The notes beneath the pieces are model-generated. The model was not told the origin of the DNA and did not search any database. It worked only from the letters and a program-made list of their open reading frames with translations. From Chloroflexaceae bacterium (GTDB lineage Bacteria; Chloroflexota; Chloroflexia; Chloroflexales; Chloroflexaceae), in NCBI GenBank assembly GCA_012031225.1, contig JAAUTZ010000042.1, positions 1 through 32,453 on the forward strand: a stretch of DNA of 32,453 nucleotides, read 5' to 3'. Below, in pieces: positions 2,078 to 18,970 of this stretch (position 1 is its first letter; each line of letters starts with the position of its first letter). The translations under genes were made by a program, and so were the position numbers.

Positions 2078-3155
2078 GCAAGGGCGCGGATAACTGGGAC
2101 TGCACTGCCTGCGCCACCTGCGCCGCCTGCGCCCCGATGCTCTGAAGCCACCCCGCCGTCGGCGGGTAGTGGAAGCCTACGCAGAATAGGCGCGGATTGC
2201 GCGTAGATTGGATCCCGTGCTGGAGAATCGGGTAGCCCGCCGCATCGAAGTCGAGCGCATCGCGCACAAAGCCCACCGTCGGGCGGTAGCCCGTGGCAAG
2301 GATCAGCGTATCAAAAGCCGCCTGCTGTCCATCCGCAAAACGCACCCAGTCGCCATGTATATCCGTGATTGCGGGATACACTGTCACCCGCCCTGCCACC
2401 ACCGCCTGCGGCAGCTCGTAGCCCACCACCGGATAGGAGCGCAACGCCCCCACCGAGTGGCGCGGGATGCCCAGCAGCGTGAAGTTGCGGCGCGTGCGCT
2501 GCAACAGCCACTCGCCTGCCGGCTCTGGCAGTTGCCTAAACAGCCACGCCAGCCCCCGCATCGCCATCGCCGATGTCGGGTAATCTACCAACTCCACCCC
2601 GTCACGGATGACGATGCCGGTATGGGCAGCGTGCGGCCCCAGCTCAACTGCCAGCTCCGCACCCGAATTGCCCACCCCCACCACTAGCACCCGCTGTCCG
2701 GTGTAATCAGTCGGGCTGCGGTAGAGACTGGCGTGCTGCACCGTGCCGCTAAAGCGAGCGATGTTTGGCAACGCGGCAACATATGGCGTGTGCCAGATGC
2801 CCGTCGCTAGCACCAGCACATCTGCCGTATACTCGCCTGCACTCGTTGCCACATGCCAGCCAGCCGCCGTAGCAGTTGCCTGTTGCACCTGAACCCCGCC
2901 CTGCACCGCGAGATCGAAGTGGCGGGCATAGGCCGCAAGGTAGCTTTGCACTTGAAAGGCTGACGGGAAGCGCGGGTAGTGGGCGGGCATGGGCCAGCCC
3001 GGCAAGCCCGATACATCGCGCAAGGTGTGCAGGTGCAAACTATCGTAGTGTTGCCCCCACGTTGCGCCGGGTTGGTGCTGCTCTAGCACCTGATACAGCG
3101 TGCCCCGCCGATGCAAGTGATAGGCCAGCGCCAGCCCGGCGGCCCCCGCACCCAC
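2031..3155 (-). CDS. FAD-dependent monooxygenase, FMO/CzcO-like
   Basis: Single-component flavin monooxygenase or related NADPH oxidoreductase. It shows the FAD motif GAGAAG at the very start, an FMO-type motif F-x-G-x3-H-x3-Y (FSGTVQHASLY), the NADPH motif GVGNSG, and the late motif LATGYRP. Length (about 375) suits small bacterial FMO-like enzymes. The start is uncertain: GTG 3155 is the first standard start, but it cuts off the first beta strand, since the codons before it read HIPVIIV, ideal for the strand preceding GAGAAG. No ATG, GTG or TTG lies between the upstream in-frame stop (3213-3215) and 3155; a CTG at 3176-3174 would restore the strand. The gene follows the membrane protein gene at 3190 closely. 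Confidence 0.85.
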   Translation of the reverse strand: MGAGAAGLALAYHLHRRGTLYQVLEQHQPGATWGQHYDSLHLHTLRDVSGLPGWPMPAHYPRFPSAFQVQSYLAAYARHFDLAVQGGVQVQQATATAAGWHVATSAGEYTADVLVLATGIWHTPYVAALPNIARFSGTVQHASLYRSPTDYTGQRVLVVGVGNSGAELAVELGPHAAHTGIVIRDGVELVDYPTSAMAMRGLAWLFRQLPEPAGEWLLQRTRRNFTLLGIPRHSVGALRSYPVVGYELPQAVVAGRVTVYPAITDIHGDWVRFADGQQAAFDTLILATGYRPTVGFVRDALDFDAAGYPILQHGIQSTRNPRLFCVGFHYPPTAGWLQSIGAQAAQVAQAVQSQLSAPLLTPDAVRPISAVVPR

Positions 3156-3189
3156 AATGATGACCGGAATGTGCAGCGTAGGTGCTAGG

Positions 3190-3792
3190 CTAGTCAGGGT
3201 ATTCTCGCTGTTCTATGGTAGGTGATACAACTCGACGCACCCAGCGCATCAGGGGCGGGATCAGCAGATACGCGAGCATTGCCACCACCAGCAGCGTCTC
3301 GAACACTCCGAATTGGGCCGCATAGTAACCAGAATGCCAGTAGCTCACGGGCGAGTAGAAGCGCACGCTCCACTCCAACGGGAACAGCAGCAGCGGGCCA
3401 TCGTTGTGATGCACCGGAATGTCGCCTGCCGTGTGGATCGCACAGCCCACCCCAAACCAGAGCATCGCCGCCCCCCACAGTGCGCCGCGCCGCATAGCCC
3501 ACACGCCTGCCCCAATCAAAGCGGCGATCACGAGCGGCGCGTGCAGCAGATTGTAGCCCGCAATCCAGATCGGGTTGGTGAAGTAGAGCGTATCGTACAG
3601 CGTGCCAAACAGCCGCTCGTCGGGGAGCCAGCCTTGCTGCAAAGCAACCATGTAGCCGCCAGTCAGCACCAGCAACGCCAGATCGGGAGCCAAGCCCCCG
3701 AATACGAGCCACTTCATCGGGAGGCTACGCCCCTGACGTTTGAGAGCGACTCCCGCCGTTGCCGCCATTAGGACATGGGTTGTTGTCATCAT
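3190..3792 (-). CDS. Small membrane protein related to YdjM-type metal-dependent hydrolases
   Basis: A 200-residue multi-spanning membrane protein. An N-terminal His (TTHVLMAATAG), the APD motif (GGLAPDLALLVL), a central HTAGDIPVHHNDGP segment and SPVSYWHSGYY are the conserved polar residues among hydrophobic helices. They match a widespread family often labelled membrane-bound metal-dependent hydrolase and sometimes, without support, CobQ. The His/Asp clusters suggest a metal site, but no activity can be assigned. Translation starts at the paired ATGATG at 3792/3789. The monooxygenase gene follows directly, so the two may be cotranscribed from the promoter near 3830. Confidence 0.7.
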   Translation of the reverse strand: MMTTTHVLMAATAGVALKRQGRSLPMKWLVFGGLAPDLALLVLTGGYMVALQQGWLPDERLFGTLYDTLYFTNPIWIAGYNLLHAPLVIAALIGAGVWAMRRGALWGAAMLWFGVGCAIHTAGDIPVHHNDGPLLLFPLEWSVRFYSPVSYWHSGYYAAQFGVFETLLVVAMLAYLLIPPLMRWVRRVVSPTIEQREYPD

Positions 3793-15663: not shown

Positions 15664-16965
15664 CTACAACTCCCGCATCACCTCACGCGCAGCTTGCACC
15701 GTATGGGCAATGTCATCAGCACTGTGGGCAAGGCTCACAAAGCCCGCCTCAAACTGCGATGGCGCAAAGTATACGCCGCGTTCGATCATGCCCCAGAAGA
15801 ACCGCGCATAGCGTTCGGTGTGGGCATACTGCTTTGCCGTCGCATAGCTGGTAATCTGCTGTCCGGCGGCGTGCAGGAAGTAGCACCCGAACATCGTACC
15901 TTGACGGCCCACCTGCACCGCAATGCCTGCGGCGGTGGCGGCGGCGTGCAAGCCCTGCACTAGCGTATCGGTGCGCTGCACAATCTGGGCAAACCAATCG
16001 GCTTGCTGGACGTGTTGCAGGGTCGTGATGCCGGCAATCATCGCCAATGGATTGCCCGACAGCGTACCCGCCTGATACATGGGGCCGGCCGGAGCCACCG
16101 TCTGCATGATCTCGCGCTTGCCTGCGTAGGCTCCCACTGGCAGCCCACCACCGATCACCTTGCCCAAGCAGGTCAGGTCAGGGTCAATCTGATAGACGGA
16201 CTGGGCCCCACCCGGCGCAGCGCGGAAGCCGGTCATCACCTCATCGAAGATCAGCAGTGCGCCGTGCGTGCGGGTTAGCTCGCGCAGGCCGGCAAGGAAG
16301 CCGGGCGCGGGCAGCACAAAGCCCATATTGGCGGCAATCGGCTCCACAATCACGGCGGCAATCTCGCTGCCGTGCGCCGCAAATAGTGCCGCTACCCCTT
16401 CAAGATCGTTGTACTCGACGGTCAGGGTATCGGCGGTGGTGCTGGCCGGCACGCCGGGGCTATCGGGCAAGCCCAGCGTGGCCACCCCGCTGCCCGCCTG
16501 CACCAGCAGCAGATCGGCGTGACCATGATAACAGCCCGTAAACTTGACGATCTTGGTGCGTCCGGTGTAGGCCCGTGCAAGCCGTAGCGCACTCATCGTC
16601 GCTTCGGTGCCACTATTCACAAAGCGGATCTGCGCGATACTCGGCATCATGCTCAGTACCAATTCGGCTAGCTCGGTCTCTAGGGCAGTGGGTGCGCCGA
16701 AGCTGGTGCCGCGTGCGGCTTGCCGCGTAATCGCCTCGACGACGGCGGGGTGGGCATGTCCGAGCACGAGCGGGCCCCACGAAAGCACATAATCAATGTA
16801 GCGGTTGCCGTCGGCATCCCACATGTATGCGCCCTCGCCGCGCTCGATCATGAGCGGTGTGCCGCCCACCCCCCGAAACGCCCGCACGGGCGAATTGACC
16901 CCACCGGGCAGCACACGCTGCGCGGCGGCAAACAGTTCCTGCGAACGGGGATAGGTTTTGGTCAT
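15664..16965 (-). CDS. hemL: Glutamate-1-semialdehyde 2,1-aminomutase
   Basis: PLP enzyme that turns glutamate-1-semialdehyde into 5-aminolevulinate, the second step of the C5 pathway after HemA. The 433-residue product has all landmarks: [11 protein letters not shown] near the start, [39 protein letters not shown], and the PLP lysine in [14 protein letters not shown] (about residue 267). ATG 16965 has GAGGAG eight bases upstream; the longer open frame in front overlaps the methyltransferase gene and is not hemL. It is the last gene of the heme operon, 13 bp after the methyltransferase stop, and ends at the 15-bp inverted repeat. Confidence 0.97.
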
Positions 16966-16978
16966 CGGTGTTGCTCCT

Positions 16979-17617
16979 CTAGCTCTTGGGGGTTGCCTGC
17001 GAATGATTGGCATACGTGGCCCAATCCGGTTCGTAATCCTCAACTTGGTTGCCCCACTGCATCCAGTGCGGGCGCGTGCCGCGTGCAAACAGTTCCAGAT
17101 AGGGGGCCGGGCTGCACGCCTCGATAATCGGATAGAGTTCATCTGGCTTGCGCGAGTGTTCCCGCTTCTGGGCTTTGATGATATTGACTTGGGTGCGCCC
17201 GGCGGCATTCGTGCGAAGCTGGCCCCGCACCCCAAACAGCACCAGCTCGGTCGTATTGCGAAAGTAGAAGCCAACCCCGCGCCCATCCGGGCCGCCGTCC
17301 TTGCGGATCTTGTGCCACACAATGTTGGTTTTGTAGCTGAAGCCCCACGCTTGCATCACGGCTAGCCCCTCTGCCAGCAGCGCATTCGGAACCCATAGAT
17401 ACAGGTGGCTCTTGGCTGCCGCTACACGCGCCACCGGAAGCGCGGTAATCTCCGCCAGTGCGAGCGTCGGGTAGCGGCTCAGCCGCCGATGTTCAGGGGC
17501 CACCTTGCCCGTGCGGTTGCTGAACTGCCACGGCGGATCAGCCAAAATTGTCCCGAAGTCACGGGCGTGAATCCACCCAGCGAAATCTTCGGCAGCACTC
17601 AGTTGCGGTTCGTTCAT
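16979..17617 (-). CDS. MT-A70 family DNA adenine methyltransferase
   Basis: A 212-residue N6-adenine methyltransferase. The catalytic DPPW motif is at residues 27-30 ([12 protein letters not shown]), followed by the family blocks [56 protein letters not shown] and YLELFARG. This subtype is known from restriction-modification systems with BglII-like endonucleases, and a broken gene of that endonuclease family overlaps its 5' end. The start ATG 17617 has no clear ribosome-binding site, suggesting translation coupled to the endonuclease frame. The sequence shows no stop or frameshift, so the enzyme may be active although its nuclease is dead. It sits between hemE and hemL on the operon strand. 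Confidence 0.88.
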
Positions 17618-17926
17618 TAGCAATGATGCCCAGCACGAATATCGGACAGCCTGCGCCCCCACCGCCATTGATGCGCGGCCGAAGCTTGCCCATATGTGTC
17701 GTGGATGCGCCATAGGATTTGCCTCTGCCCAACCGATCAAAGATCGCCTGTAGCTCGTCGCAGCGTGGGATGATGATCCCCACACTGATTGCCCGCAGTT
17801 CAAACAGCAGCCGGAAGTTATTCAGATCGCGGTCAAACTACAACAATCTGGGTAGCGCAGCCCTTCTCGCGCCAGCCACGGGCAGTGAACAGCGGCAGCA
17901 TATCTAAAGCCCATACGCATTCCTGC
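17559..17926 (-). pseudogene. Broken BglII-family type II restriction endonuclease
   Basis: Two pieces of one endonuclease in different frames. The first (17926-17833, stop TGA) ends in LFTARGWREKG...TQIVVV, matching the ARGWR region of the family. The second (17837-17559) begins with FDRDLNNFRLLFELRAISVG, runs through IIIPRCDELQAIF, YGASTTHMGKL and GGCPIFVLGI, and ends 59 bp inside the methyltransferase gene. From memory of the family, the missing middle (some 30-40 residues) holds the catalytic Asp and the Glu of the IEWN motif, and about 60 N-terminal residues are gone too. It cannot be an active nuclease. The remaining C-terminal frame may still couple translation to the methyltransferase. 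Confidence 0.8.
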
Positions 17927-17929
17927 TGC

Positions 17930-18970
17930 TTATGCCACGCGGCTCGCCATCTGGACATACTCCACAAGGCGGGCAACATGATCCACCGGCGTTTCGGTGA
18001 GGATGCCGTGCCCCAGATTGAAGATGTGCCCATCCCGTCCGGCAGCGCGGGCGAGAATATCATCCACGCGCCGCTCGATTTCACCCCACGGCGCAAACAG
18101 CACCGCCGGATCGAGGTTGCCCTGCACGGCTACGCCGGGGCCCAGTTGGGCCCACGCCTCATCGAGATCAATGCGCCAATCCACGCCGAGCACATCGGCC
18201 CCAGTCTGGCGCAGCAGGCTCGCCATGCCGCTCATCTCGGTGCCAAAATAGATCACGGGCACACCAAGCTCGCGCACCGCCGCCACACATTGATTGACGT
18301 AGGGCAACACATACTCGCGGTAATCGAAGGGCGACAGATTGCCCGCCCAGCTATCGAAGAGTTGCACCGCGTTGACCCCCGCCTCGACTTGGGCATGGCA
18401 ATAGCTGATGACCAGCTCGGTAAGCTTCTGCATCAGACTGTGCCACACGTCGGGCGTGCCGAGCATCATGCGTTTGGTGATGCGGTAATCTTTGCCAGAG
18501 CCGCCCTCAATCGCATAGCTGGCCAGCGTAAACGGCGCACCACTGAAGCCAATCAAGGGAATCCGCCCAGCCAGTTCACGCTGCACCAACTGGATCGCTT
18601 CGAGCGTAAAGGCGGTGGTCTCGCGTGGCTCTGGCACCACCAGCGCGGCTACATCGGCGGGTGTGCGGAGCGGGTTGTGGATCACGGGGCCTTCGCCCTG
18701 CTCAAAGGTCAGATCAATGCCCATCCCTTCGAGTGGGGGCAGAATATCGGCAAAGATGATCGCCGCATCAAGCGGGTAGGCCTGCACCGGTTGCAGCGTA
18801 ATCTCGGCGGCAACGTCGGGCGTTTTCACCATCTCCAGAAAGCTATACCGTTCGCGCACCGCCCGATACTCAGCCATGTAGCGCCCAGCTTGGCGCATCA
18901 GCCAGATCGGGGTATAGTCCGTCGGTTCGCGGCGACACGCCCGCAGAAACTGATCATTCTTGATCCTCAC
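17930..18970 (-). CDS. hemE: Uroporphyrinogen decarboxylase
   Basis: Removes four carboxyl groups from uroporphyrinogen III to give coproporphyrinogen III in the cytosol. The 346-residue product has the N-terminal signature [15 protein letters not shown], the active-site Asp in IIFADIL, the block [17 protein letters not shown] and the C-terminal [16 protein letters not shown], all conserved. The start is GTG 18970 with GGGAG five bases upstream. It follows hemB by 9 bp, and the restriction-modification remnant begins right after its stop codon. Confidence 0.97.

Follow-up and report, generated by a model that had tools for sequence, protein, structure and literature searches.

Three kinds of described system stand closest to the locus considered here: (i) the BglII/BstYI endonucleases (PF09195; BglII, 1d2i and 1es8; BstYI, 1sdo and 2p0j), with BamHI as a neighbour; (ii) cassettes in which a PF09195 nuclease is paired with an MT-A70 methyltransferase; and (iii) orphan methyltransferases that adjoin degraded nuclease genes. 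The last are discussed, with reference to Seshasayee et al., in a passage of PMC6471742, according to which the change of a restriction-modification (R-M) methyltransferase into an orphan is infrequent. The locus lies in a 32,453-nt contig of a Chloroflexaceae bacterium (JAAUTZ010000042.1), analysed over its whole length and referred to below as the window. With the BglII/BstYI endonucleases it shares the family profile; an intact relative shares their fold by prediction, and the active-site pattern D-x8-E-x-(E/Q) is present in intact relatives. Of about 197 residues the window itself retains only about 88, distributed over two frames and with the active site gone; the partner in its subfamily is, moreover, an MT-A70 enzyme. 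With the two-gene cassettes it shares the order of nuclease and then methyltransferase, on the same strand and in near overlap, at identities of 73-85% for the nuclease piece and 62-76% for the methyltransferase, but its nuclease is destroyed and its site is inside a tetrapyrrole operon. The orphan methyltransferases of PMC6471742 resemble it in combining an intact methyltransferase with an adjoining nuclease pseudogene; the window differs from them in its position in the hem operon and in that the unoccupied site is known from a congener.

The nuclease remains occupy the minus strand of the hemE-hemL interval (Table 1). The larger, C-terminal piece reads FDRDLNNFRLLFEL...STTHMGKL...GCPIFVLGI (17625-17837) and accounts for the single match to PF09195 in the window's own genome (17625-17834, minus strand; E=7.8e-17; 62.8 bits at a cut-off of 26 bits), spanning profile positions 94-162 of 163. 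A scan of one genome each from 84,980 species of bacteria and archaea yielded at least 347 related loci; the best 80 of these, which were fetched, are 73-85% identical to the C-terminal piece, and at strongly conserved positions the piece deviates in 1 of 40. The N-terminal piece, FTARGWREKGCATQIVV, is too short to be recognised by Pfam alone and adds less than 2 bits to the profile score when spliced to its C-terminal counterpart. Scored by a position matrix built from intact relatives, it reaches 34.6 bits; elsewhere in the window, with both strands considered, no site exceeds 1.8 bits. In 20,000 shuffles of the 92-nt stretch that preserved its dinucleotides, this score was never equalled (best, 9.6). 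Both nuclease pieces are real. Sequence comparison also confirms that the two out-of-frame pieces derive from one BglII-family nuclease, as the preliminary description had proposed: Pfam carries this assignment for the C-terminal piece, the matrix and the shuffles carry it for the N-terminal piece, and Pfam together with the predicted fold does so for the intact relatives. The span originally given to the gene, 17559-17926, has to be narrowed to 17625-17889, the stretch 17559-17624 being a run-on of the open reading frame that overlaps the MT-A70 gene. Searches of PDB sequences with the fragment and with a profile of its relatives returned no BglII entry. Weak matches of the fragment to Csc2, a type I-D CRISPR protein, lay below the cut-off and were disregarded.

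Table 1. Features of the hemE-hemL interval and its flanks (window coordinates)
Feature	Position	Strand	State or remark	Evidence
hemL (glutamate-1-semialdehyde aminomutase), downstream flank	15664..16965	-	intact	PF00202; 96% aa identity to congener
Adenine methyltransferase of the MT-A70 family, 212 aa	16979..17617	-	DPPW motif; apparently intact	PF05063 E=5e-31
Operon-foreign segment, 947 nt	16981..17927	-	congener has unrelated 258-nt spacer instead	
BglII-family endonuclease, C-terminal piece, 71 residues, FDRDLNNF...CPIFVLGI	17625..17837	-	in frame; own start codon absent	PF09195 E=7.8e-17, 62.8 bits
Internal deletion scar	17837..17839	-	net 92 nt gone; relatives encode VD...PTHK(V/I)DC(F/Y)KN.(V/I)ALEIEWNNKDPF there, with catalytic Asp and Glu	
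N-terminal piece, FTARGWREKGCATQIVV	17839..17889	-	out of frame with C-terminal piece, one frame off	family position matrix 34.6 bits and alignment
Nuclease 5'-end remnant / insertion border past hemE stop	17890..17927	-	ATGGGCTTTAGATATGCTGCCG at 17914 a possible old start, not significant	
hemE (uroporphyrinogen decarboxylase), upstream flank	17930..18970	-	intact	PF01208 full length; 97% aa identity to congener

Intact relatives of the nuclease are ~200 residues long, and all 28 that were aligned match PF09195. The predicted structure of one of them, L041 (pLDDT 88.8, pTM 0.88), superimposes on BstYI with a Z score of 17.3 (2.6 A over 164 residues), on BglII with 16.8 (2.3 A over 154 residues) and on BamHI with 14.1, and the first entry outside the BstYI/BglII/BamHI group follows at 5.4. 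The BglII/BstYI version of the PD-(D/E)XK fold is thus predicted, for the intact relative L041 only. The consensus of the family, YEVHEWKHACAIL...GW.EK.F.T...VD...PTHK(V/I)DC(F/Y)KN.(V/I)ALEIEWNNKDPF(F/Y)DRDLNNF, allows the losses in the window to be sized. In all 74 relatives measured, 42 aa separate the W of RGW from FDRDL, as against 34 nt in the window; the net loss of 92 nt between the pieces also shifts the reading frame. The missing stretch contains the motif (V/I)DC...ALEIEWNN, which includes the catalytic Asp as well as both Glu: the family-invariant residues D100, E109 and E111 (L041 numbering) fall in the gap and have no counterpart in the window, where the nuclease nowhere presents the catalytic Asp and Glu of D-x8-E-x-E/Q in one frame.

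The D-x8-E-x-E spacing of the relatives fits what we take to be the D84/E93/Q95 pattern of BglII, the E-I-E-W-N-N of the subfamily presumably standing where BglII has E-V-Q. Judged by the distance from the catalytic Asp, the catalytic Glu of the family would be the first E of E-I-E-W-N-N, and the E of IEWN would occupy the position of Gln95 in BglII. The catalytic core had been described as deleted, and the comparison with the 74 relatives bears this out, the Asp included; the catalytic Glu, which had been assigned to IEWN, by this spacing lies two residues before the E of that motif, and both are gone.

The total loss is larger than was first stated. Between the 5' end and RGW, DNA worth ~60 residues is missing or unrecognisable: in 58 of 66 relatives the start codon and GW are 72 residues (216 nt) apart, and in the window 37 nt lie between a candidate ATG at 17914 and GW. 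That ATG is itself unsupported, 362 of 2000 shuffles being as good as the putative start MG(x)DMLP found there, so that the N-terminal motif is not significant. At the opposite end, the usual C-terminal tail of 9 residues (about 9 codons) is missing or unrecognisable, and the methyltransferase ATG (17617) comes almost directly after the last conserved residue of the nuclease. Having lost its active site, its reading frame and about half of its length, the nuclease is, to judge from its sequence, dead, and activity can be ruled out. Its decay is young, because what remains has kept its identity to the relatives and nearly all of its conserved positions.

The neighbouring methyltransferase presents a different picture and appears to be intact. 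It has ADPPW at residues 26-30, covers the full PF05063 domain (positions 1-172 of 172), is labelled a type II MTase by PADLOC (E=1.3e-87) and deviates in 1 of 86 strongly conserved columns, as against 0-3 in its relatives. A homologue of this enzyme (62-76% identity) adjoins the nuclease in 78 of the 80 related loci, and the remaining 2 stop at a contig border; on this gene order the pair is a standard two-gene type II R-M cassette and a widespread one. In the 78 loci MT-A70 starts at or just past the nuclease stop and on the same strand, save in L108. The loci come from many phyla (e.g. Azomonas agilis, Crenothrix polyspora and Rhodobacter sp. SW2), the nuclease family also occurs on a few plasmids, and 10 of the 11 IMG/VR viral contigs with a nuclease match (L129-L139) have MT-A70 adjacent to it, in tandem or converging. 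The window, with its MT-A70 gene (PF05063, 16979-17617) directly beside the nuclease, thus contains a type II R-M unit as had been suggested, though an incomplete one: the nuclease is broken, and the methyltransferase is intact by its conserved columns.

In a tree of 78 methyltransferases, the branch of the window enzyme is fairly long and lies among sequences of other phyla, with unsupported neighbours and apart from the two named Chloroflexota sequences, a position that is consistent with horizontal arrival and no proof of it. The nearest methyltransferase to that of the window is carried by L103. This is one of three loci in which a nuclease lesion (about 2620-3245) is seen beside an intact MT-A70, namely frameshifts in L072 and L115 and an in-frame stop in L103; since a single-base lesion in a draft assembly may be an error, these counts are indicative only. 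A further genome of the same order, G044 (L008/L141, G044:C146), encodes an MT-A70 enzyme 69% identical to that of the window, and no BglII-family nuclease is present in the 3.6 kb fetched. Other members of the nuclease family occur nearer to the window's own lineage. The congener has an intact one elsewhere (L003, G001:C29:17036-17566), beside a different, non-MT-A70 methyltransferase, and the PF09195 search found no counterpart of it in the window's genome. G033, a genome of the same family that consists of a single contig, has a degenerate second copy with two TGA and one TAA codons (L006, G033:C1:4018631-4019149) besides an intact one (L004).

The hem genes on either side are full length, in line with the original claim that the operon was entered without being broken, and the hemL ribosome-binding site, AGAGGAG, overlaps the MT-A70 stop codon. 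Compared with G001, the sole congener examined (genome ~88% complete), ungapped homology ends at 16980 and resumes at 17928: on the hemE side the DNA is 93.2% identical, with no gaps, to a point 2 nt beyond the hemE stop codon; on the hemL side it is 91.7% identical from the hemL ribosome-binding site onward. A search of this ~88% complete congener genome for the methyltransferase found none. The 258-nt spacer of the congener (L010, 1238-1495) has no match beyond chance elsewhere in four genomes, and neither nuclease nor methyltransferase debris was seen in it. The order hemB-hemE-hemL is maintained in the Chloroflexaceae genomes with a readable locus; where the hemE-hemL gap can be read in other members of the family, it measures 29-355 nt and in none contains the cassette. 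Since neither a target-site duplication nor terminal repeats could be seen at the borders of the cassette, there is no transposon signature. No sigma-70-like promoter was seen in the hemE-hemL interval, a scan that carries no weight as evidence in the case of this organism.

These observations are very probably explained by the entry of a cassette into the hemE-hemL spacer, followed by decay of the nuclease and retention of the methyltransferase as a solitary enzyme. The history of the locus would then have been the following: A small type II cassette, composed of a nuclease with the BglII/BstYI fold and, behind it, an MT-A70 gene, entered the spacer as a unit. It would have replaced the spacer past the hemE stop and ahead of the hemL ribosome-binding site, sparing this site and all hem genes. 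Deletion and frameshift would then have deprived the nuclease of its catalytic core and of the greater part of its N-terminal region. The methyltransferase would have been retained and would now stand alone within the hem operon, presumably co-transcribed with hemE and hemL. Loss of the nuclease first is the safe order of events, because a nuclease that outlived its methyltransferase would be free to cut the chromosome. Arrival was probably recent, after the split from the sequenced congener, because in this sole congener the site, between flanks that are 92-93% identical, is taken up by an unrelated spacer of 258 nt. A gain in an ancestor, with later loss and replacement in the congener, is a possible alternative, since the spacer of the congener is unrelated rather than empty.

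From the one draft genome in which the locus is known, we infer that insertion preceded the decay of the nuclease; the same insertion with an intact nuclease was found in no relative. It is unlikely, though conceivable, that the nuclease was already broken before arrival and that the transferred segment consisted of an orphan methyltransferase with nuclease debris. Lesions of the nuclease beside an intact methyltransferase do occur elsewhere, as in L072, L115 and L103, and the G044 locus, as fetched, has the methyltransferase with the nuclease absent; the surviving piece, with its high identity and 1 of 40 conserved positions changed, indicates young decay, yet it is silent on whether this decay came before or after the insertion. 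That the nuclease is intact in the organism, and that errors of sequencing or assembly have produced both the break in frame and the gap, is scarcely credible even for one contig of a 205-contig draft assembly, as the losses (net 92 nt, ~180 nt and the C-terminal tail) exceed base-calling errors and the flanking genes are clean. Equally hard to credit is a working peptide, e.g. a regulator or a DNA-binding relic, made from the C-terminal remnant (74 aa from a GTG start at 17783, or 92 aa without a start): the remnant does have an open frame and keeps most of its conserved positions, yet the short form is recognised, "by design", in none of the 80 fetched relatives, the frame continues beyond the end of the family into the methyltransferase gene, and half of the fold, including the active site, is absent.

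The methyltransferase most likely still methylates adenine at the old site of the nuclease, without restriction. It is very doubtful that the solitary enzyme has been co-opted, with expression coupled to the tetrapyrrole operon and with DNA methylation that marks or regulates genes in time with the synthesis of heme and bacteriochlorophyll. The BglII-family and MT-A70 cassette is widely spread, and its target site was not found in the sources searched. As an event, the window locus is of an ordinary kind, a further example of a described process in an unusual place. It would offer a clean and datable snapshot of the way in which an R-M cassette becomes established in a core operon and is reduced to a solitary methyltransferase: the site is unoccupied in a congener that is 7-8% divergent, the nuclease remnant is still recognisable and the methyltransferase is retained.
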